IMG/VR virus record: IMGVR_UViG_3300031576_000254
Coordinates: 1 to 26,611 of that record
Length of the DNA stretch: 26,611 nt
Origin: a virus
Reading direction: 5' to 3' (one strand)
The number at the start of each line of letters is the position of its first letter. Position 1 is the stretch's first letter. The notes beneath the pieces were generated by a model that had not been told where the DNA came from, ran no database searches, and saw only the letters and a program-made list of their open reading frames with translations. A program made the translations under genes and the position numbers. Positions 4,562 through 24,189 of the stretch are shown here, in pieces.

Positions 4562-4775
4562 GTCTCAGTATCCAGTACAGTGCCATAGCCAGCAGAGGTG
4601 TATTGGATAGGATGCTCTTGCCACCTATCTCCGTATCTGACAATATGGCCCGTCCACTGATCAGAGCATCGGCTACGGCAGCGGTTCCCGGTTTAGCCGT
4701 TGTCGCGCTGTCTACTAAGTAGGGACCGAATAGCTGCCCGAACGACGCGACGGTGCGGCCTCTGACTGCGGCCAT
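4551..4775 (-). CDS. 74-residue protein, paralogue of the 77-residue neighbour
   Basis: The product begins MAAVRGRTVASFGQLFGPYL. Its first 22 residues match those of the next gene upstream (RGRTVAS.G.LFGPYLVDS), so the two arose by duplication. The C-terminal part (LLAMALYWILRHGL) is hydrophobic and could form a short membrane or buried helix. The ribosome binding site is weak. Function is unknown. It may be a small virion anchoring peptide, since it lies between fibre genes. Confidence 0.5.
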   Translation of the reverse strand: MAAVRGRTVASFGQLFGPYLVDSATTAKPGTAAVADALISGRAILSDTEIGGKSILSNTPLLAMALYWILRHGL

Positions 4776-4781
4776 GACCAG

Positions 4782-5015
4782 CTACTTGCCCCATTTCTCG
4801 ATGACGCTACGTATGAACTCTCCCATCAACAAGAGAGGCGGCAGGAGTACATTCCACTTGGCAGGCCGATCGAACCAGCCTGACCCCGTAGGAACCCCCC
4901 AGGTGCGAACGCGAGTAGGATGGCCCTCGCCGCTCGGCTGCGATCCTGAGTCCACCAGGTAGGGTCCGAATAGCTCCCCCATCGATGCGACTGTCCTGCC
5001 ACGTGAGTAGGCCAT
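4782..5015 (-). CDS. 77-residue protein, paralogue of the 74-residue neighbour
   Basis: The product begins MAYSRGRTVASMGELFGPYL and then diverges from its neighbour. The C-terminus reads RPAKWNVLLPPLLLMGEF, a hydrophobic segment. The hexamer RPAKWN echoes the RPARWN and RPSRWN that end the two LamG proteins further upstream. AAAGGG is a weak ribosome binding site 9 nt before the ATG. Function is unknown. The shared N-terminal block suggests a common docking surface in the two paralogues. Confidence 0.5.
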   Translation of the reverse strand: MAYSRGRTVASMGELFGPYLVDSGSQPSGEGHPTRVRTWGVPTGSGWFDRPAKWNVLLPPLLLMGEFIRSVIEKWGK

Positions 5016-5021
5016 AGCAGA

Positions 5022-5153
5022 TTATCCCTTTAGTAGACTGAAGACAATCCAGAGAGCCACACTCATAGCCACAGCTGCACCCACAAGATATGGGCGTATC
5101 CGGCTGTCTATCTTGATCGCCTCAACCTTCTCCTCTAGGTACCCATCCCACAC
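5022..5153 (-). CDS. 43-residue single-span membrane protein (short, easily missed)
   Basis: A GTG at 5153-5151 overlaps the fibre gene's TAG by one base (TAGTG). GGAG lies 7 nt upstream. The product begins MWDGYLEEKVEAIKIDSRIR, a charged amphipathic helix, then has one hydrophobic span (about residues 22-41, LVGAAVAMSVALWIVFSLL) and ends LKG. Topology and size suit a small inner-membrane or virion-associated peptide. A holin or antiholin helper is possible, but the main holin candidate is elsewhere (15779-16048). The tight coupling to the fibre gene supports that it is translated. Confidence 0.6.
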   Translation of the reverse strand: MWDGYLEEKVEAIKIDSRIRPYLVGAAVAMSVALWIVFSLLKG

Positions 5154-6994
5154 TATACTGCTCCGGTGAGTTCGTCGATGGGGGCGTTGGCTGCGTCGGT
5201 AGTGATCGTCTGCGAAGCATGAATGGTAGTGCCGTTGCTCCTATAGATCTCGAGCGTGCCAGCATTGTCTCGAACGCGGTGAACTGCCTTCATCACGGCC
5301 GCGCCAAGACTCTTGACACCAGCAGATGCCTCCCAGTTCGATGAGGCACGAGTCATTAGACCATCCGCAATCTCGTTCACAGCGTCAGCGGCCAGCTCAG
5401 AGGCTCCGATGGCATCGGGAGCAATAGCAGCTGCGTCGATCGCACCTGCGCCGAAACTGGTAGAGACGATGCCGCCCGCCGCTGGATTGGCGGTAAGTGT
5501 CTCCGTGACGTTGAAAGCCGCATTGTCGATAGCCCCGGCCGCGAAAGCGCCCGAGGTGATCACAGCCGCGGCTAGGGCTCCCACGAAGGCGTCCACACGG
5601 CCCGACTGCAGAGCGTTGACCGCCGTCCCTATCCACAGGGCCACGTCGGCCCGTGCTGCGGGCAGAATCTCGTATGTTTGCGTGGCAACTGCCTGGGTAG
5701 TGGCCGGTGAGAAGGTGATTGTGTCCGTTGCAGCGTTGAAGCCGGTGATGAGTCGCACCTGGTTCGCGATCGTGCCCGAAGTGAAGAGGATACTGCATCC
5801 CTTCCAGTAATCAGCGTCGGCTTCGGTTCGAGCGGCGTCGACCATCGTGGTTGTCGAGCCGCTGTCCGACGTACCAGAGGCAAGTGAGCGGATTTCGGTC
5901 ACTGCATCCGCCGCCAGTGCGTTTGCATCTATAGCACCCGCGCCGAACTTAGCCGCAGTAAGAGCCGCGGCCGCGATCGCATCGGCATCGATGGCACCCG
6001 TACCAATCGCCGCCGCATCGATAGCGCCGGCACCAAACTTGGCCGCGGTGATAGCCGCGGCAGCAATCGCATCCGCATCAATAGCGCCTGTCCCGATCGC
6101 AGCCGCGTCGATAGCGCCGGCTGCGAATGTTGCCGCGTCAATCGCGCCGTTGGCTATCGCTGCGGCCGTGATCACATCGGCGGCCAACGCTTGCATATTG
6201 GCGTCCACTCGCCCGGCAATCAGGTTGTTGGGCGAGGTGCCATTCCACAGTCGAAGGTCGGCAGCTGCAGCCGACAGGATCTCGTAGGTATTGGTACCCG
6301 CCGCCTGGGTAGTAGCAGGCGAGAAGGTCAGGGTATCTGTGGTAGCGTTGAAGGCAGTAATGAGTCGTGCCTGGTTGATGATCGTGCCGCTGGTGAACAG
6401 AATGACACAGCCCTTCCAGTAATCCGCATCGGCTTCCGTCCTCTCTGTGTCGACGACAGTAGTGGTGGATCCACTATCTGCCGTTCCAGTGGCCAGGGAC
6501 CGAATCTCGGTTACGGCACTGGCAGCCAGAGCATTGGAATCAATCGCGCCGGCGGCGAACTTGGCGGCGGTCAATGCCGCCGCACCGATTTCGGCCGCGT
6601 CCAGCGTGCCAACGATGTTGTCGAAGTCGACCCCGGCATTGCCTCCGGCCGTCACATCAAGTCCAGTCCCAGACGTCACCGGGAAGAGCAGATCGACCAG
6701 CTGGCGAGTGACGGTATACATCACATTGACTGCCGTCTTCGCGTTCGTCGTCGTAGTCTTTGTGATGACGGCAACAATATCGGCATTCATCTCGGTCGCT
6801 GTCAAAGAGAGGGTATACATTCCCGATGAGGTAGCGACCTCTACGGCCTCGTTGGTTCCATCGGTAAACGTGCCGCCGTCCTTGCTCACCTCCGAGTCCA
6901 ACGTAGCAGCAGCGCTTACCAAGTCGCCATCATTGTCGTAGATGGGAAAGGTAACAGTAAAAGCCGCATTCTTCTTAGCGGGCCAGTCAGCGAT
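5153..6994 (-). CDS. Repetitive tail fibre protein with an apparent ATC start
   Basis: The 613-residue reading begins at ATC (6994-6992), where GGAGG lies 8 nt upstream. The N-terminal residues (IADWPAKKNAAFT, then FPIYDNDGDLVSAAATLD) fit the conserved start of phage fibre-like proteins. A TTG at 6922 would remove 24 of these residues and lacks a ribosome binding site. The body has GAIDAxAIGxGAID-type repeats (beta-helix-like) and two copies of an about 95-residue domain. Each copy runs from VTEIRSLA.GT.DSGSTTT through EADADYWKGC.ILFTSGTI to TFSPATTQ and GRVDA. The C-terminus is a small beta domain. This looks like a host-recognition fibre. It is coupled to the 43-residue gene by TAGTG. Confidence 0.75.
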   Translation of the reverse strand: MADWPAKKNAAFTVTFPIYDNDGDLVSAAATLDSEVSKDGGTFTDGTNEAVEVATSSGMYTLSLTATEMNADIVAVITKTTTTNAKTAVNVMYTVTRQLVDLLFPVTSGTGLDVTAGGNAGVDFDNIVGTLDAAEIGAAALTAAKFAAGAIDSNALAASAVTEIRSLATGTADSGSTTTVVDTERTEADADYWKGCVILFTSGTIINQARLITAFNATTDTLTFSPATTQAAGTNTYEILSAAAADLRLWNGTSPNNLIAGRVDANMQALAADVITAAAIANGAIDAATFAAGAIDAAAIGTGAIDADAIAAAAITAAKFGAGAIDAAAIGTGAIDADAIAAAALTAAKFGAGAIDANALAADAVTEIRSLASGTSDSGSTTTMVDAARTEADADYWKGCSILFTSGTIANQVRLITGFNAATDTITFSPATTQAVATQTYEILPAARADVALWIGTAVNALQSGRVDAFVGALAAAVITSGAFAAGAIDNAAFNVTETLTANPAAGGIVSTSFGAGAIDAAAIAPDAIGASELAADAVNEIADGLMTRASSNWEASAGVKSLGAAVMKAVHRVRDNAGTLEIYRSNGTTIHASQTITTDAANAPIDELTGAV

Positions 6995-7022
6995 GGCTTT
7001 ACCCTCCGAGTCCTATCGACCC

Positions 7023-7044
7023 TATGTGTCACATCTGACACATA
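7023..7044. repeat. Inverted repeat before the fibre gene
   Basis: TATGTGTCA, CATC, TGACACATA: a perfect 9-bp inverted repeat with a 4-nt spacer, 16 nt upstream of the fibre ribosome binding site. There is no following T-run, so it is not a terminator. It could be an operator or an RNA hairpin that affects fibre translation. Confidence 0.5.
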
Positions 7045-7058
7045 ATCGGCGTACTCTA

Positions 7059-7439
7059 TTAGTTCTTACTAATCAACCTCTTTGCGAGGCCTGCGAACAG
7101 ACTCTTCTTTGGCACAATCTCGGGCGGTGTCAAAGTGGAAGTCTTCGACCGCTCTTCCTCTACCACGCGCTGCGTCATGAGCCAGTCCTCACCCTCAAGG
7201 AGTTCCATGCTTACGACCAGCGAGGGCCGAATGTTCGTCACCGCTACGGGCCCCGGTGCTCGCGCCAGCTGCTCTTGCCCCCATCCACGGCGCGTGTCTA
7301 TCTTCATTGTGAGAAGAGTTTCGTCCTGCTGATCACCGGCGTCGGCCAGGATGATATCGATCAGCTGGGCCTTGAAGTGTCCCTTACGCTTGTGGTGTAC
7401 AGCATACACCTTGTTTAGTTCTAGGTCAATAGTTTTCAT
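7059..7439 (-). CDS. 126-residue protein of unknown function in the fibre cluster
   Basis: The product begins MKTIDLELNKVYAVHHKRKG. The ATG at 7439 is preferred: GAGGA precedes it, and the gene then starts 7 nt after the LamG gene stop. A longer frame runs inside the LamG gene in another register. The N-terminal half looks like a small beta barrel that could bind or sense (KVYAVHHKRKGHFKAQLIDII, then TLLTMKIDTRRG). The C-terminus is charged, ending KSLFAGLAKRLISKN, an amphipathic basic helix. I do not recognise the family. Confidence 0.55.
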   Translation of the reverse strand: MKTIDLELNKVYAVHHKRKGHFKAQLIDIILADAGDQQDETLLTMKIDTRRGWGQEQLARAPGPVAVTNIRPSLVVSMELLEGEDWLMTQRVVEEERSKTSTLTPPEIVPKKSLFAGLAKRLISKN

Positions 7440-7446
7440 TCGATCC

Positions 7447-8235
7447 TCAATTCCAGCGTGCGGGTCTATCCCGATAGCCTGCGGCGGTTGGCTGCCCCTG
7501 TCCTCGGGGCATGTACGGCTGGCCCGCAGGTGCTCCGGCCGCAGTAAAGGCACCCTGCCAGCCATTGTCTCTAAACCAGGGCATCGCAACAGGTGCGTGG
7601 TTTGCCAAGACCGCACCCGTCACCGTCAGATGACGAACTCCACTGGTATAGTCTGGCTCTGGCGAGCCCACTCCGAACAGAGGCGCATAGAACACGATCG
7701 ACTGCGGTCTGACTCGGATCTGACTTACCCGGCTCGCTAGAGCTGCGACCTCAGCATCACTGAGAGCCACGTTCCAAATCGTCACCTCGGCAATGCGGCC
7801 ATCGAAATAGTTGGCTGGGATGCTATCCCCCTCTCGACCCACACTGATTCGGTCCGATCCAGCGGGTGTGGCGCTTGTCGTTATTGTTCCCTTGCTTCCA
7901 CCGTCAATGAATACCGCCCTCAAAGTGCCCGAGGTGGCAACCCCACAGGCATGATGCCAGGTGTCAATCGAAAAGCCGGTAGTGGTCGAAGCACTGTTTG
8001 AGCCGCCGCCTGCCACGGTACGAAAGCGGAAAGGGTCTCCGGCAACGTCTCCATTGATCCGCAGCTGCCAACTGTGGAAATTGTCTACGTCCTTGTCACC
8101 AATGTAAATCAGAGTCTCTTGAGCCGTGTTCCGATCGGGCCGAACCCAACAAGCGAATGTGAATGGATAAGCCGTGACCGGCGCACTATCGAGTTCTAGC
8201 CGGTCGAGATTCGCAGCGACAAATTCTCTCGCCAT
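7447..8235 (-). CDS. LamG / concanavalin A-like fibre protein, cassette copy A
   Basis: The 262-residue protein is mostly one jelly-roll lectin-like domain (about residues 1-175). The pattern is typical of the Laminin_G_3 type: FTFACWVRPD early, WHHACGVATSGTLRAVFIDG in the middle, and FDGRIAEVTIWNVALSDAEV with the characteristic helix late. The C-terminal tail contains GQPYMPRG and PTAAGYRDRPARWN and is shared with copy B. Such domains bind sugars on phage receptor-binding proteins. It overlaps its partner gene by one base (TGATG). The tail may be an attachment or processing signal; that is inference. Confidence 0.75.
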   Translation of the reverse strand: MAREFVAANLDRLELDSAPVTAYPFTFACWVRPDRNTAQETLIYIGDKDVDNFHSWQLRINGDVAGDPFRFRTVAGGGSNSASTTTGFSIDTWHHACGVATSGTLRAVFIDGGSKGTITTSATPAGSDRISVGREGDSIPANYFDGRIAEVTIWNVALSDAEVAALASRVSQIRVRPQSIVFYAPLFGVGSPEPDYTSGVRHLTVTGAVLANHAPVAMPWFRDNGWQGAFTAAGAPAGQPYMPRGQGQPTAAGYRDRPARWN

Positions 8236-8738
8236 CAGGCATCACTGTAACTGAGTAGTAACTCTACCACCTGAGCTGCAGCTGCCATCGTGTCGCCAGC
8301 GGCGACACCATCCCGAGCGAACAGGAATTCCACTGTTTCGCCAGCGGCAAAGTTGCCGGCCGTCAGAGAGATAATGACACGCAATCTCCTATCCGTCGCG
8401 CCTGGCGCGGCATCTGTGACCGTCACCGCCTCCTCCGTGCCCGTTTGGTCAAGCGAGTTCGCATCGTCACCGGCGACAGTCCGATAGTCGAAATCCCATA
8501 CCACGTTGCCTGTTATCGCCGTTGAGGTCCAGATGATTACAATGGTTGCCCCGCCCACGTAATTTTGGGGAACGGTGAAGGAACCATAGAGCAAATCACG
8601 GGTAGCAGTATCGAGAAATATCCAGTGGGGATGACGCCACTGATCGTTCGTCGCTTTGATACTGTACGCCTCTGGAAATACATTCCCGCTGGTGTCGGGG
8701 AGCACATTGCCTAAGATACTGATCTCGTGTGTGGCCAC
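8235..8738 (-). CDS. Beta-rich fibre-cassette protein, copy A
   Basis: The 167-residue product begins MATHEISILGNVLPDTSGN at a GTG that overlaps the preceding stop (TAGTG), with GGAGG upstream. It contains SFTVPQNYVGGATIVIIWTS and FDYRTVAGDDANSLDQTG, and a final FARDGVAAGDTMA. It aligns along its full length with the product of 9800-10306. The NYVGGA..vi.WTS core is typical of small beta-sandwich head-fibre or appendage proteins of phages, from memory. It is always paired here with a LamG gene, suggesting the two form one appendage. Confidence 0.6.
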   Translation of the reverse strand: MATHEISILGNVLPDTSGNVFPEAYSIKATNDQWRHPHWIFLDTATRDLLYGSFTVPQNYVGGATIVIIWTSTAITGNVVWDFDYRTVAGDDANSLDQTGTEEAVTVTDAAPGATDRRLRVIISLTAGNFAAGETVEFLFARDGVAAGDTMAAAAQVVELLLSYSDA

Positions 8739-8983
8739 TACTCCCTCCTAGATTTCTGCATTAGGAATCTGATGAGAAGCAATCGCTTCACAGCACCCGG
8801 TAGTACAACGGGGGAGGTAGCAGTATTGATGGCAGCATTGAGGGAAGGCCGGTTGGCTTCAAACCAATCCTCGACGGCCTGGGCCGCCGCATTGATCTGG
8901 GCCTTGGTCCAGTTAATTCCTACCTGGTCCTCAGCAGCAGCTTGCCTCAGCTCAACTAATTGATTTGGAGAGAGAATTGCCAT
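8738..8983 (-). CDS. 81-residue helical protein between the two fibre cassettes
   Basis: The ATG at 8983 lies 4 nt after the LamG copy B stop. A longer frame upstream is a shadow of that gene. The product begins MAILSPNQLVELRQAAAEDQ and is mainly helical (INWTKAQINAAAQAVEDWFE), ending in a basic LLLIRFLMQKSRRE. Phage genomes often carry such a helical protein (N-terminal SPxQ, WTKxxxNAAxQAxEDWFE) near fibre genes, from memory; its job is unknown. Only one copy is present even though the flanking cassette is duplicated. Confidence 0.6.
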   Translation of the reverse strand: MAILSPNQLVELRQAAAEDQVGINWTKAQINAAAQAVEDWFEANRPSLNAAINTATSPVVLPGAVKRLLLIRFLMQKSRRE

Positions 8984-8987
8984 GGTC

Positions 8988-9797
8988 TCAGTTCCAACGT
9001 GACGGTCTATCCCGATAACCTGCCGCAGTGGGCAGGCCCTGATGACGAGGCATGTAGGGCTGGCCTCCAGCAGGCGGTGGCGCAGTGAATGCGCCCGGCC
9101 AACCGAACACGCCGATGTAGGGCGCTGAGCAGGGTGGGCCGTCCGCCACGACCGCGCCGGTGACTGTGCCATTCTGCGCCAGGCCGCTCCAATCCTCGCC
9201 GCCGACGTTGAGCGGTAGGAACAGGCGTAGGCTGTTGGTGACGCGGCCCGGGTAATGTGCCGCGACGTTGAGTTCTTCCAGGCCCAGGATGCGTTTCCAG
9301 AACTGCATGTTGGCCAGGCGGCCATTGAGGGTGGCGGTTTGAGCGGAGATGTTGCCGACGCAGTAGCCGGTAGCCGGGGCAGCGCCGCTGCCGATGGGTG
9401 TTGTTAGCTCGGTGACGGTGACGCTTGACAGGCGCTTGTCGCTGGCGGTGTCCCAGATATACATGAGCGGGTCGTTGGCGACGGAACTGTAGTCGTAGGT
9501 CAGGGCAACACAGAACCATCGGCCCAAAGCCAGCGAATCAGTTGGCGACCTCCAGATGCCGTCGGCCGAGCCGCCGCCGGTGAAGTTGTATTGCAACTGC
9601 ATTTCGGTGTTTGTTGCGCTGGTGAGGAACCAGCGCAGGTCGGTGCTGGCCTCAGGTAGGGCGAGCAGCCGGACTGATGCCTCGCCAACGGCGGTGATGT
9701 AGAGCCAGGTAAGCATACTCATCACCGTGCCGGAGTCGAGAATGCTGGCGGTGGTGTGCTCAACTTTATCGTCCACGCCATCGAAGGAAAGGGCCAT
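8988..9797 (-). CDS. LamG / concanavalin A-like fibre protein, cassette copy B
   Basis: The 269-residue protein begins MALSFDGVDDKVEH, the usual opening of LamG domains. It continues through MSMLTWLYITA, WFCVALTYDYSS and LNGRLANMQFWKRILGLEEL. The C-terminal tail carries GQPYMPRHQG and PTAAGYRDRPSRWN, nearly identical to copy A, while the lectin domains themselves have diverged. A sugar-binding role on the receptor-binding apparatus is likely. It starts at ATG 2 nt after the preceding stop. Retention of the tail while the domain changes argues that the tail is the part fixed to a common partner. Confidence 0.75.
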   Translation of the reverse strand: MALSFDGVDDKVEHTTASILDSGTVMSMLTWLYITAVGEASVRLLALPEASTDLRWFLTSATNTEMQLQYNFTGGGSADGIWRSPTDSLALGRWFCVALTYDYSSVANDPLMYIWDTASDKRLSSVTVTELTTPIGSGAAPATGYCVGNISAQTATLNGRLANMQFWKRILGLEELNVAAHYPGRVTNSLRLFLPLNVGGEDWSGLAQNGTVTGAVVADGPPCSAPYIGVFGWPGAFTAPPPAGGQPYMPRHQGLPTAAGYRDRPSRWN

Positions 9798-9799
9798 GA

Positions 9800-10306
9800 T
9801 CAGGCGTCCACGTACTCGAACAAAAGTTGAAACAAGATCACTGCACCGACGAGCGTATCCCCTGCGTCTGCTCCATCTCGGGCAAAGAAGAACTCGACTT
9901 CTTCATCGACGGCAAAGTTGCCCGCCGTGAGCGTAATCGACGCTTCCATGCGGCGTAGGGCTGCGCCGGGCGCCGTGTCTGTAACGGTAACGCTCTCATC
10001 CTCACCCGTCTGGTCGAGACTGGTAGTATCATTTCCACCAACCGTCCGATACACAAAGTCCCACACCACATTATTGGTGATCACCGTCGAAGTCCAGACG
10101 ATCTTAAGCGCAGCGCCACCCACATAATTCTTAGGAACGGTGAAACCCCCATGCACGCCGATGCGTGTCGCCGTGTCATTGAAGATCAGCACCAGTCTGT
10201 CCCAGACATCATTGGTCGCCTTAATATCGAATTGCTCGAAAAAGCAGTTTCCGGATGTATCTGGGATGGCGGAGAAACCAAGAATCGGAATGCTGTGAGT
10301 AGCGAT
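9800..10306 (-). CDS. Beta-rich fibre-cassette protein, copy B, with an apparent ATC start
   Basis: The 168-residue reading aligns end to end with copy A at 8235-8738. From ATC at 10306-10304 it reads IATHSIPILGFSAIPDTSGN against MATHEISILGNVLPDTSGN. AGGAG lies 8 nt before the ATC. No ATG, GTG or TTG exists between the upstream TGA (10312-10310) and a GTG at 10192; starting there would discard 38 residues that match the paralogue and lacks a proper ribosome binding site. Later blocks are FTVPKNYVGGAALKIVWTS and TAGNFAVDEEVEFFFARDG. It may be a true AUC start or a weakened start; a sequence error cannot be excluded. Confidence 0.65.
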   Translation of the reverse strand: MATHSIPILGFSAIPDTSGNCFFEQFDIKATNDVWDRLVLIFNDTATRIGVHGGFTVPKNYVGGAALKIVWTSTVITNNVVWDFVYRTVGGNDTTSLDQTGEDESVTVTDTAPGAALRRMEASITLTAGNFAVDEEVEFFFARDGADAGDTLVGAVILFQLLFEYVDA

Positions 10307-10335: not shown

Positions 10336-11769
10336 CTAATTTTCCGAGCCGATCCATCCAGAGGATATGGCTCCCAGCGTAGTTTCGCTAACGACCTGCC
10401 CATTCAGGAAAAATATGTCACGCTCCGGCGTATCCTGCGGCGTTGGATTGGATACCTTCTCTACACTCAGTTCCGTGCTGTAGAAGCCCACGAACGCCGA
10501 CTGCATTTTGATTGGATGGCAGTCCATACCCGGAGTTGTGCAGGCCGGGTTCAATTGCCCGAAGCGCGTCACGAAGCCTTCGGCGGTGATGCGGCCTACT
10601 CGCGCATCCGTGTCAAACCCCGCCAGGTTGTCCCATTCACTAGGGATGTTCCCCTGTACCTCATGGATCGTGCTGGTGCTGTTATTGTAACGGCAGCCTG
10701 GGGAGGCGGCATAGTTCGCGCCGCCGTCTGCGGAGCATAGCCAGATGAATGTAAACGGGTGTGCCAAATCGTTCCAGTCAAATACCTGGTAGGTATCGCG
10801 CACCCGAAACAGCACGGCCAGCAGCGATGAGCCGGAGGGCGCGACCCGGAATGCGCTCTTGCTTGTCCAGATAGAGTTCGTGTTGGCGTTGCTACTCAAT
10901 ATGGATCCGCGGCTGGTACGGCACTTCCCCAGCTGAGGCAAAACCTTGAAACCGATACAATCCACCGAGATATACGGGCCGAGGCCGGAGGCGTAGCCGG
11001 GCAGGGGCCGGGTGGGGTAGAGCATTACGTCGCCCTGGTAGGGCACGACGACCTGGCCGTAGTCTACGTGTTGCACGACGTAGACATAGCCCTTATCGGC
11101 AGGATTGTCCGGCTTGCATTGGCGAAGAAGGGCGGCGATAGAGTGGACGCGGCCTTCCAATTCTACCGAGTAATGGCCGAAGTTGTGATACTGAATGGCG
11201 CTTGCGTCCACCGCCACCGTTCCGCTCTCGAAGCCGACCGTACACCCCTGGGCCGCGGGAATGTCCACCTGCCACTTGAAGCCGCCGTGTTTGGCGACGT
11301 TCTCGACGGGCGATGAAGGATTGGTATGCCCTACACCCACGTTGCCCAACAGGGCGTACAGAGAAAAGCCGGGGAAGGCATCGGCGACGGCTAGAGTGAA
11401 GGGCAACTCGCCGTGTTCGTGGTCGTAATGGCACCCACGTCCGCTGTCCCAGAGCGTGTGGAATAGACTGTTGTGATGGGACAAACCAGAGTCTGGACAC
11501 AGTGGGGCGCCGGGATAAGGCGCAACATGCCCGGCCGGCGTCTGCGTAACAGTGGGTAGAGCAGTCGCAGTCGGCAAAGCCGTTGCCGTGGGAGTAGGTG
11601 TGGTGGTAAATGCCGGCGTAGGCTTTTTCACCCCGGAGGCGGCATTCAGCACCCATGGCAGATACCGGTTGTGCTCAGGCGCAACAAGGGTAGAACTCGA
11701 ATTTCGGACCAGGAGCAGAACTGCCGCTGCCAATAGCCAGAAGAGCAGTCGTTTGAGATTCATATTCAT
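10336..11769 (-). CDS. Large exported protein with TPT-rich linker
   Basis: The 477-residue product opens with MNMNLKRLLFWLLAAAVLLLV, a clear signal peptide without a lipobox. YLPWVLNAASG and a threonine/proline linker (about residues 50-80, TTTPTPTATALPTATALPT) follow. The remaining 390 residues form a cysteine- and histidine-bearing domain, with GRGCHYDHEHGELPF near residue 110, which could bind metal. Exported proteins with such linkers and a YLP.VL motif remind me of Chloroflexota secretomes. No enzymatic family is recognised. It sits between the GH protein and the fibre cassettes in the same operon and is an unusual payload for a phage late region. Confidence 0.65.
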   Translation of the reverse strand: MNMNLKRLLFWLLAAAVLLLVRNSSSTLVAPEHNRYLPWVLNAASGVKKPTPAFTTTPTPTATALPTATALPTVTQTPAGHVAPYPGAPLCPDSGLSHHNSLFHTLWDSGRGCHYDHEHGELPFTLAVADAFPGFSLYALLGNVGVGHTNPSSPVENVAKHGGFKWQVDIPAAQGCTVGFESGTVAVDASAIQYHNFGHYSVELEGRVHSIAALLRQCKPDNPADKGYVYVVQHVDYGQVVVPYQGDVMLYPTRPLPGYASGLGPYISVDCIGFKVLPQLGKCRTSRGSILSSNANTNSIWTSKSAFRVAPSGSSLLAVLFRVRDTYQVFDWNDLAHPFTFIWLCSADGGANYAASPGCRYNNSTSTIHEVQGNIPSEWDNLAGFDTDARVGRITAEGFVTRFGQLNPACTTPGMDCHPIKMQSAFVGFYSTELSVEKVSNPTPQDTPERDIFFLNGQVVSETTLGAISSGWIGSEN

Positions 11770-11778
11770 GTTACTCCC

Positions 11779-12699
11779 TCATGGAATGTTGAATTTGAAT
11801 GCCGTAATATTACACAATGTAGAACCATTAGGCTGAGGCGCACAGCCCCTAAACGCCAACCTATGAAAACCTATTGAGAATTGACTCATATCGATTGTGA
11901 TTGTCCTAAAAACCTCAGTGGGATTTGCTAGACGCAGTAGCGCCGTTCCATCATACCCATTGTGGAAATCCGGATCGACGGTTACCAAACATTCTGAAAG
12001 GGGGTATGGACTATCTGAAGCACAATAGAATCGAATGGGAAAGGGTTTTCTAACTGGACGGTTGGGTACAGGGGTACCACGAATGACCGTGCGGGCGTAA
12101 TCCGCCCCGGTGTACCAAGACTTTCCCTCCAGCTGCTCTGATACCACACTATCTACGATACTCCGACCATTAGAAATTGTGGCTGTATGTCCAGAGGAAA
12201 TCAACATGTGTTTGCCATCTGGCTCGGCAACTAAGGCATGAAGCCGCCACGTTTGTCTTCCATCGTAAGGTAATAGGGTAGTATTTGCAACGATTGGAAT
12301 ACGCCACTGGCAAGTCTGTCCAATCGGACAGGTCAGTGGGGGATTGAATTCGACTAGAGCCAACTGGGCTACTCGTGTACCTATGTTTTGAGCATCGGGT
12401 ATGTCAATGTCTACAGATCCCAGCCTGCCAGGATTATTGTGCATCGTGATCAAGAACTCAAATGGTACTTGCCCACTGACTGACTGGTAAAGCGGAAAGC
12501 AGGTTGCCAAGTGAACATGCCCGAAGTCGGAGCCACCCTGACCCGGTGTTTGTATCCACCATACCTGAGTGTCGATCCATACCCGCCTGGGACGATAGCC
12601 TTCGCACGTGTCTGTATTCGGGGCAATCCGTGTAAACCCCAACATCAGAGCCGGCATCAAAACTATCATCATGATTCTAGTGATGTGGTGCAAGTTCAT
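11779..12699 (-). CDS. Exported protein of unknown function
   Basis: The 306-residue product begins MNLHHITRIMMIVLMPALML, a signal peptide, and then has a cysteine-rich extracellular-type domain. Features include QTPGQGGSDFGHVHLATCFP, PPLTCPIGQTCQWRIPIV, YCASDSPYPLSECLVTVD and RGCAPQPNGSTLCNI. These suggest several disulfides and a beta-rich fold. Its start overlaps the GH gene by ATGA, so the two are translationally coupled. It has no known catalytic motif. It probably acts outside the cytoplasm, perhaps on or at the host envelope; that is inferred from the signal peptide only. Confidence 0.65.
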   Translation of the reverse strand: MNLHHITRIMMIVLMPALMLGFTRIAPNTDTCEGYRPRRVWIDTQVWWIQTPGQGGSDFGHVHLATCFPLYQSVSGQVPFEFLITMHNNPGRLGSVDIDIPDAQNIGTRVAQLALVEFNPPLTCPIGQTCQWRIPIVANTTLLPYDGRQTWRLHALVAEPDGKHMLISSGHTATISNGRSIVDSVVSEQLEGKSWYTGADYARTVIRGTPVPNRPVRKPFPIRFYCASDSPYPLSECLVTVDPDFHNGYDGTALLRLANPTEVFRTITIDMSQFSIGFHRLAFRGCAPQPNGSTLCNITAFKFNIP

Positions 12700-23698: not shown

Positions 23699-24189
23699 GC
23701 CAGTATCCTCGCACCGGGAACCTGCCGATTATAGGGTTGATCGAATGTTACAACTTGCACACCTAACTCCCGAGCCTGCATGATTTGCCAGGGCGAGTCT
23801 TCAAAGGCGAGAGACGGATTAATGCTAGCCAGGATGCCTGGTTTTAGGTCTGTCTCCGTGATGATCAAGTCGTCAAAAGGAAACTCATGCTTCGCAACCC
23901 AATCCCGCGTTGCGTCAATCGTGCCAGCCGGTCTTGCCGTGAGTGCGATCACGGAGAATCGTGTCTTCATCTGCAGAACCTTCTGCAGCCCTCTTGGAAT
24001 AGGGACCAGGGCAAGATACACTGCCGGGTCTTGCACAAAGGCCCGAATCTCCTCGATAGGAGTGTCGGGGTAGCGCTTGCGGAGGTCATAGAGTGTCTGG
24101 TCACATGGGCCAAAGTGCTGAATGATCGCAGAGTCGAAGTCGGCCAGCACGCCATCGAGATCGAATACGACGATCTGTCTATCCTCCAT
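23692..24189 (-). CDS. HAD-family phosphatase, 5'(3')-deoxyribonucleotidase-like
   Basis: The 165-residue protein begins MEDRQIVVFDLDGVLADFDS. HAD motif I is DLDGVLAD (10-17; D10 nucleophile, D12 acid/base). Motif II is IALTARP, motif III the lysine in TDLKPG, and motif IV AFEDSPWQ. The small size and DLDGVLADFD start match phage and bacterial 5' nucleotidases that dephosphorylate dNMPs. ATG 24189 (TGATG overlap) is chosen over a GTG one codon earlier. A 12-bp hairpin lies 18 nt upstream. It probably adjusts nucleotide pools during infection. Confidence 0.7.
   Translation of the reverse strand: MEDRQIVVFDLDGVLADFDSAIIQHFGPCDQTLYDLRKRYPDTPIEEIRAFVQDPAVYLALVPIPRGLQKVLQMKTRFSVIALTARPAGTIDATRDWVAKHEFPFDDLIITETDLKPGILASINPSLAFEDSPWQIMQARELGVQVVTFDQPYNRQVPGARILAW

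Follow-up and report, generated by a model that had tools for sequence, protein, structure and literature searches.

AUC start codons are already known in bacteria. The gene encoding IF3, infC, starts with ATT in E. coli and with ATC in Streptomyces, and repression by IF3 is established for its near-cognate starts (PMC5472188). Likewise, IF3 repression has been measured for sigR of Streptomyces, which starts with GTC (PMC5472188), and a B. subtilis rny-lacZ fusion in which the start codon was mutated to AUC displayed a much lower expression (PMC10303841). Knowledge of bacterial non-canonical starts rests on a handful of worked examples, and a search of the open-access literature yielded no account of phage tail genes that start with AUC. 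The baseplate gene 26 of phage T4 is said to contain an internal AUU start.

The window analysed here is the whole of a 26,611-base IMG/VR virus record (IMGVR_UViG_3300031576_000254), in which, according to the preliminary description, two genes of a fibre cluster appear to start at ATC, each 8 nt after a strong ribosome binding site. The coordinates given for both genes proved exact, and the relevant features are the following:

5153..6994, minus strand: tail-fibre-like gene of 613 codons, with ATC (6994-6992) as first and GCT as second codon
7007-7003, minus strand: Shine-Dalgarno sequence of the fibre gene, GGAGG, with a spacing of 8 nt to the ATC
7015-7013, minus strand: TAG in the frame of the fibre gene, which it closes ahead of the ATC
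7044-7023, minus strand: inverted repeat TATGTGTCA-GATG-TGACACATA with perfectly matching 9-bp arms, placed after the upstream gene and 16 nt before the Shine-Dalgarno sequence of the fibre gene
8235..8738, minus strand: paralogue sharing about 62% identity with the cassette gene and starting with GTG-GCC in the same alignment column as the cassette ATC
9800..10306, minus strand: cassette (fibre-associated) gene of 168 codons, with ATC (10306-10304) as first and GCT as second codon
10312-10310, minus strand: in-frame TGA closing the cassette frame, separated from the ATC by one codon (ACC)
10319-10315, minus strand: Shine-Dalgarno sequence of the cassette gene, AGGAG, with a spacing of 8 nt to the ATC

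Based on the comparison with related genes, both ATC triplets are very probably genuine start codons, which would be read by fMet-tRNA with the help of the strong Shine-Dalgarno sequence. The fibre of the window carries the conserved N-terminal domain (beginning with M-A/S-D/G-W-P) of a family of IMG/VR fibres, here called MADWP, with ATC replacing ATG, and is 48-88% identical to its relatives across about 98 aa. Its ATC aligns exactly with the ATG or GTG starts of these relatives; the family comprises 21 distinct start contexts, window included, distributed among ATG (17), GTG (1) and ATC (3). The relatives of the cassette gene start with ATG in ten cases, GTG in two and ACG in one, and an ATC was found in none of the 13, the cassette ATC being known from the window record only. 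It had been claimed that conserved residues reach back to the ATC in both genes, and an alignment of relatives had been proposed as a check; in both families the relatives do start at the codon aligned with the ATC, and the paralogue, said to begin with GTG-GCC at the same position, indeed has its GTG (8738) in that column. The start is therefore placed at the ATC by the aligned starts of the relatives together with the constraint on the N-terminal codons described below. The whole region 7447-10306 of the minus strand is a tandem duplication of an adhesin-like cassette in which the 168-aa protein occurs twice, both times with a Laminin_G_3/concanavalin-A-like protein behind it (7447-8235 and 8988-9797).

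That translation starts elsewhere, either at downstream codons or, through readthrough or a frameshift, as a continuation of the gene before it, is highly improbable. Near their 5' ends, the two frames offer no canonical codons other than TTG 6922, 24 codons into the fibre gene, and GTG 10192, 38 codons into the cassette gene, but both lack a Shine-Dalgarno sequence and lie within conserved domains. Moreover, the codons preceding them evolve as coding sequence, with a pN of 0.02-0.17 against a near-saturated pS of 0.68-1.1 for codons 2-24 of the fibre gene and a pN of 0.16-0.26 against a pS of 0.72-0.98 for codons 2-38 of the cassette gene, and this constraint argues that translation does not normally begin at the downstream codons. 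Upstream, stops close both frames just before the ATC, and the interval between the TAG and the ATC of the fibre gene (GAC TCG GAG GGT AAA GCC) consists of six codons with no start among them. The earlier statement that no ATG, GTG or TTG with a ribosome binding site is available thus stands.

The fibre ATC start is also found in two other phage lineages, one represented by L083 (3300025327_000115) and the other by L099 (3300025324_000042) and L138 (3300025160_000076), the last two being identical over 7.9 kb and coming from two separate samples. The leaders before and at the ATC are GGAGGGTGCAGCCATCGC in L083 and GGAGGGTAAAGCCATCGC in L099/L138; over GGAGGGTNNAGCC-ATC-GC the window and L099 are identical at 18 of 18 nt, while the sequence further upstream differs, and beyond the fibre cluster the L083 contig has little in common with the window. 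Between L083 and L099, the 17 codons after the ATC display six synonymous and no non-synonymous changes, and in the first 80 codons after an intervening sequence pN/pS is about 0.13, a value that refers to these two ATC-bearing relatives. Since change downstream of the shared ATC is mostly synonymous, the fibre appears to have stayed functional with an ATC start. A protein tree (about 100 residues, modest support) does not unite the fibre of the window and the L083/L099 pair as sisters, and the shared leader may have been exchanged, have arisen twice, or have been replaced in the intervening ATG lineages.

The intervening sequence, of roughly 230-250 nt, is found in L099 (reverse strand, about 8558-8840), in L138 (about 4745-5030) and in a further record, L009 (just before 10001), and splits the fibre gene after codon 18, between FPI and YDNDGD. 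Its junctions fit a group I intron, the exon ending in T and the insert in G; an Rfam search with the L099/L138 sequence gave no match. Immediately ahead of the ATC-started fibres of L083 (2370-2954, minus strand) and L099/L138 lies a small putative LAGLIDADG-type homing-endonuclease gene in antisense orientation, with a WAAGFxDGDGS motif; beyond these loci, a search for it returned one weak match only. A palindrome is also present between this gene and the Shine-Dalgarno sequence in L083 (ACCGTTATTATAACGGT) and L099, and the inverted repeat of the window may possibly be a hairpin or an operator. Directly before the cassette gene, two genes on the minus strand (10336-12699) have no Pfam or PHROG match; one of them has a signal-peptide-like start and PTPTATALPT repeats like those of Chloroflexota secreted proteins, a hint of the host.

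Of the 12 stretches returned by a scan for GGAGGGTNNAGCCATCGC, three belong to fibre records and four are chance matches, while the other five all represent a single further gene, which encodes the tape measure of Charlievirus (cluster N) mycobacteriophages, which are cultured isolates. This case is independent of the fibre and cassette genes of the window, although the likeness of its leader is partly selected by the motif search. The tape-measure region was found in 68 phage records, and in the seven examined (Xeno, Charlie, Butters, SkinnyPete, Redi, Phrann and SpongeBob; L150-L156) the open reading frame has a single codon ahead of the ATC, opening with GCC-ATC; the ATC is followed by GCC or GCT and stands 8 or 9 nt behind a GGAGG. 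The annotated start in all seven is an ATG 56 codons downstream; in Mycobacterium phage Xeno (NC_031243.1), the ATC is at 9955 and the annotated start at 10123. Codons 2-56 differ between subgroups by 10-14 synonymous and three non-synonymous changes. The frame of this gene relative to the upstream gene, which is the usual tail-chaperone gene, varies among the subgroups and thereby speaks against a conserved fusion with that gene and, accordingly, against a start elsewhere by extension. No Charlievirus relative with an ATG in place of the ATC was found, so the evidence here consists of the frame, the Shine-Dalgarno sequence and the constraint; on these grounds the gene appears to start at the ATC, before the deposited ATG, a reading for which no publication was found.

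Other candidates were set aside. At 24174 of the window, one more ATC follows a GGAGG, but has a GTG and an ATG in frame a few codons upstream, and CCATCGCT in the portal gene (19639-19632) lies inside the open reading frame, eight codons after an ATG and without a Shine-Dalgarno sequence, and was judged a chance occurrence. An unbiased scan of all loci for any codon behind a strong Shine-Dalgarno sequence returned mostly spurious and antisense open reading frames, the ATC cases that hold being the two genes of the window and the L083 fibre only, and a scan for ATCGCNGAYTGGCC returned 44 loci, mostly chance matches. No cultured-phage matches to the cassette protein, the fibre N-terminus, the terminase or the 10336-11769 protein were found.

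How the ATC triplets came about allows for further explanations. A sequencing or assembly error, by which one or both of the ATC triplets would really be ATG, might be suspected in a single metagenomic record, all the more as ATG or GTG is the start in 12 of the 13 relatives of the cassette gene and in most relatives of the fibre gene. It is nonetheless quite improbable, given that the fibre ATC with the same leader occurs in two other lineages, one of them recovered from two separate samples, and that two start-codon errors to the same triplet would hardly be expected in an otherwise intact 26 kb contig. Systematic loss of CCATGG, by modification, restriction or a context error, was discarded because four copies are intact in the window, one of them in a start context at 8980. 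Real silencing mutations, which would have removed the starts and left genes that are in decay or shut down, are unlikely as well. A cassette copy with an ACG start (L052, around 10001) does carry a frameshift near codon 27, being either decayed or misassembled, and the GTG-started second copy in the window could make the first dispensable. Yet searches for signs of a pseudogene, such as a broken frame or relaxed constraint, found both open reading frames intact with strong Shine-Dalgarno sequences retained, and purifying selection on the fibre between the ATC-bearing lineages. The loss of start codons, raised earlier as an alternative, thus finds no support for the fibre, given its intact frame and this selection, but may still apply to the cassette gene, whose ATC is found in one record.

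A somewhat more plausible, if still doubtful, account holds that the ATC is a scar, a foreign gene having been inserted just upstream and having swapped the old Shine-Dalgarno-ATG for a leader with a serviceable AUC. This explanation concerns the origin of the codon and is compatible with initiation at AUC. The putative homing-endonuclease gene directly upstream of the ATC in L083 and L099 speaks for it, as do the close relatives devoid of this gene, in which an ATG directly follows the upstream gene, and the position of the genes without phage-family matches directly before the cassette; in L083/L099 the insertion may have replaced the old Shine-Dalgarno-ATG. On the other hand, the endonuclease family has few members, so that the association amounts to about one insertion. 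The fibre of the window has no such gene upstream, only a 64-nt spacer, and this, together with the usual chaperone gene before the ATC in Charlievirus, makes an insertion scar at most part of the story. The view of the preliminary description that ATC is the start codon is supported, with the fibre case much strengthened by the two other lineages and by the independent mycobacteriophage case. Against this reading stand the ATG of most fibre relatives, the place of the window apart from the other ATC fibres in the protein tree, and the lack of a parallel to the cassette ATC in searches that excluded near-identical records.

The comparisons support the position of the start, the lack of an alternative, the N-terminal constraint and the persistence of ATC in diverging fibre lineages; from them we infer initiation at AUC, the tRNA used, the lower yield, the sensitivity to IF3 and any benefit. 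We hypothesize that the strong Shine-Dalgarno sequence, at a good spacing, would anchor the 30S subunit and bring the AUC into the P site, where fMet-tRNA (anticodon CAU) would initiate through two Watson-Crick pairs, the third position being mismatched; the products would accordingly begin with fMet-Ala, as do the proteins of the relatives. The yield is expected to be below that of AUG and to rise when IF3 stringency drops, and a low yield would suit, or be tolerated by, low-copy tail parts. The deliberate down-tuning of fibre synthesis suggested earlier, and IF3 sensing, are plausible by the precedent of infC and sigR, but the very strong Shine-Dalgarno sequences could equally compensate for a weak codon. 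Fibre, fibre-associated and tape-measure genes all encode low-copy tail parts. This low copy number is compatible with down-tuning, although the cases are few and the relatives manage with ATG.

Only tentatively, and as a rather unlikely generalization, might AUC behind a strong GGAGGGTNNAGCC-type leader be a device that phages employ repeatedly, unseen by annotation, in their late tail genes, keeping low-copy parts scarce and tied to initiation-factor stringency in the course of infection. If so, fibre, fibre-associated and tape-measure genes would form a class hidden by gene callers restricted to ATG, GTG and TTG. Such annotation truncates these genes, as it appears to have done with the tape-measure protein, short by 56 codons in the deposited genomes examined. 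AUC apparently serves as the start of three different phage genes, and one of these belongs to mycobacteriophages that are cultured and genetically tractable, in which the use of AUC, its strength and its control by IF3 are directly testable.

Compared with known systems, the two genes resemble infC in their apparent near-cognate AUH start, which in Streptomyces is AUC itself, and differ in being phage tail genes, whereas infC is a cellular gene under IF3 autoregulation. As far as the sequence indicates, they share with infC the lack of an upstream start and a Shine-Dalgarno sequence at functional spacing; the codon appears to be kept in relatives of the fibre gene, but not in any of the 13 relatives of the cassette gene. 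With sigR they have in common a non-canonical start behind a ribosome binding site, conserved in relatives and missed by gene callers (PMC5472188); sigR differs in its GTC codon, in encoding a regulatory protein and in having a start proven by experiment. The Charlievirus tape-measure gene displays a closely similar arrangement, in which GGAGG(T)GTTGAGCC-ATC-GCC/GCT stands at the head of a long tail-gene frame directly after a stop, in an unrelated protein and phage, in cultured isolates and with a deposited ATG further downstream. Gene 26 of T4, finally, reportedly offers near-cognate AUH initiation within a phage tail gene, and is said to differ in that the start is internal, gives a shorter product and is AUU, not AUC.
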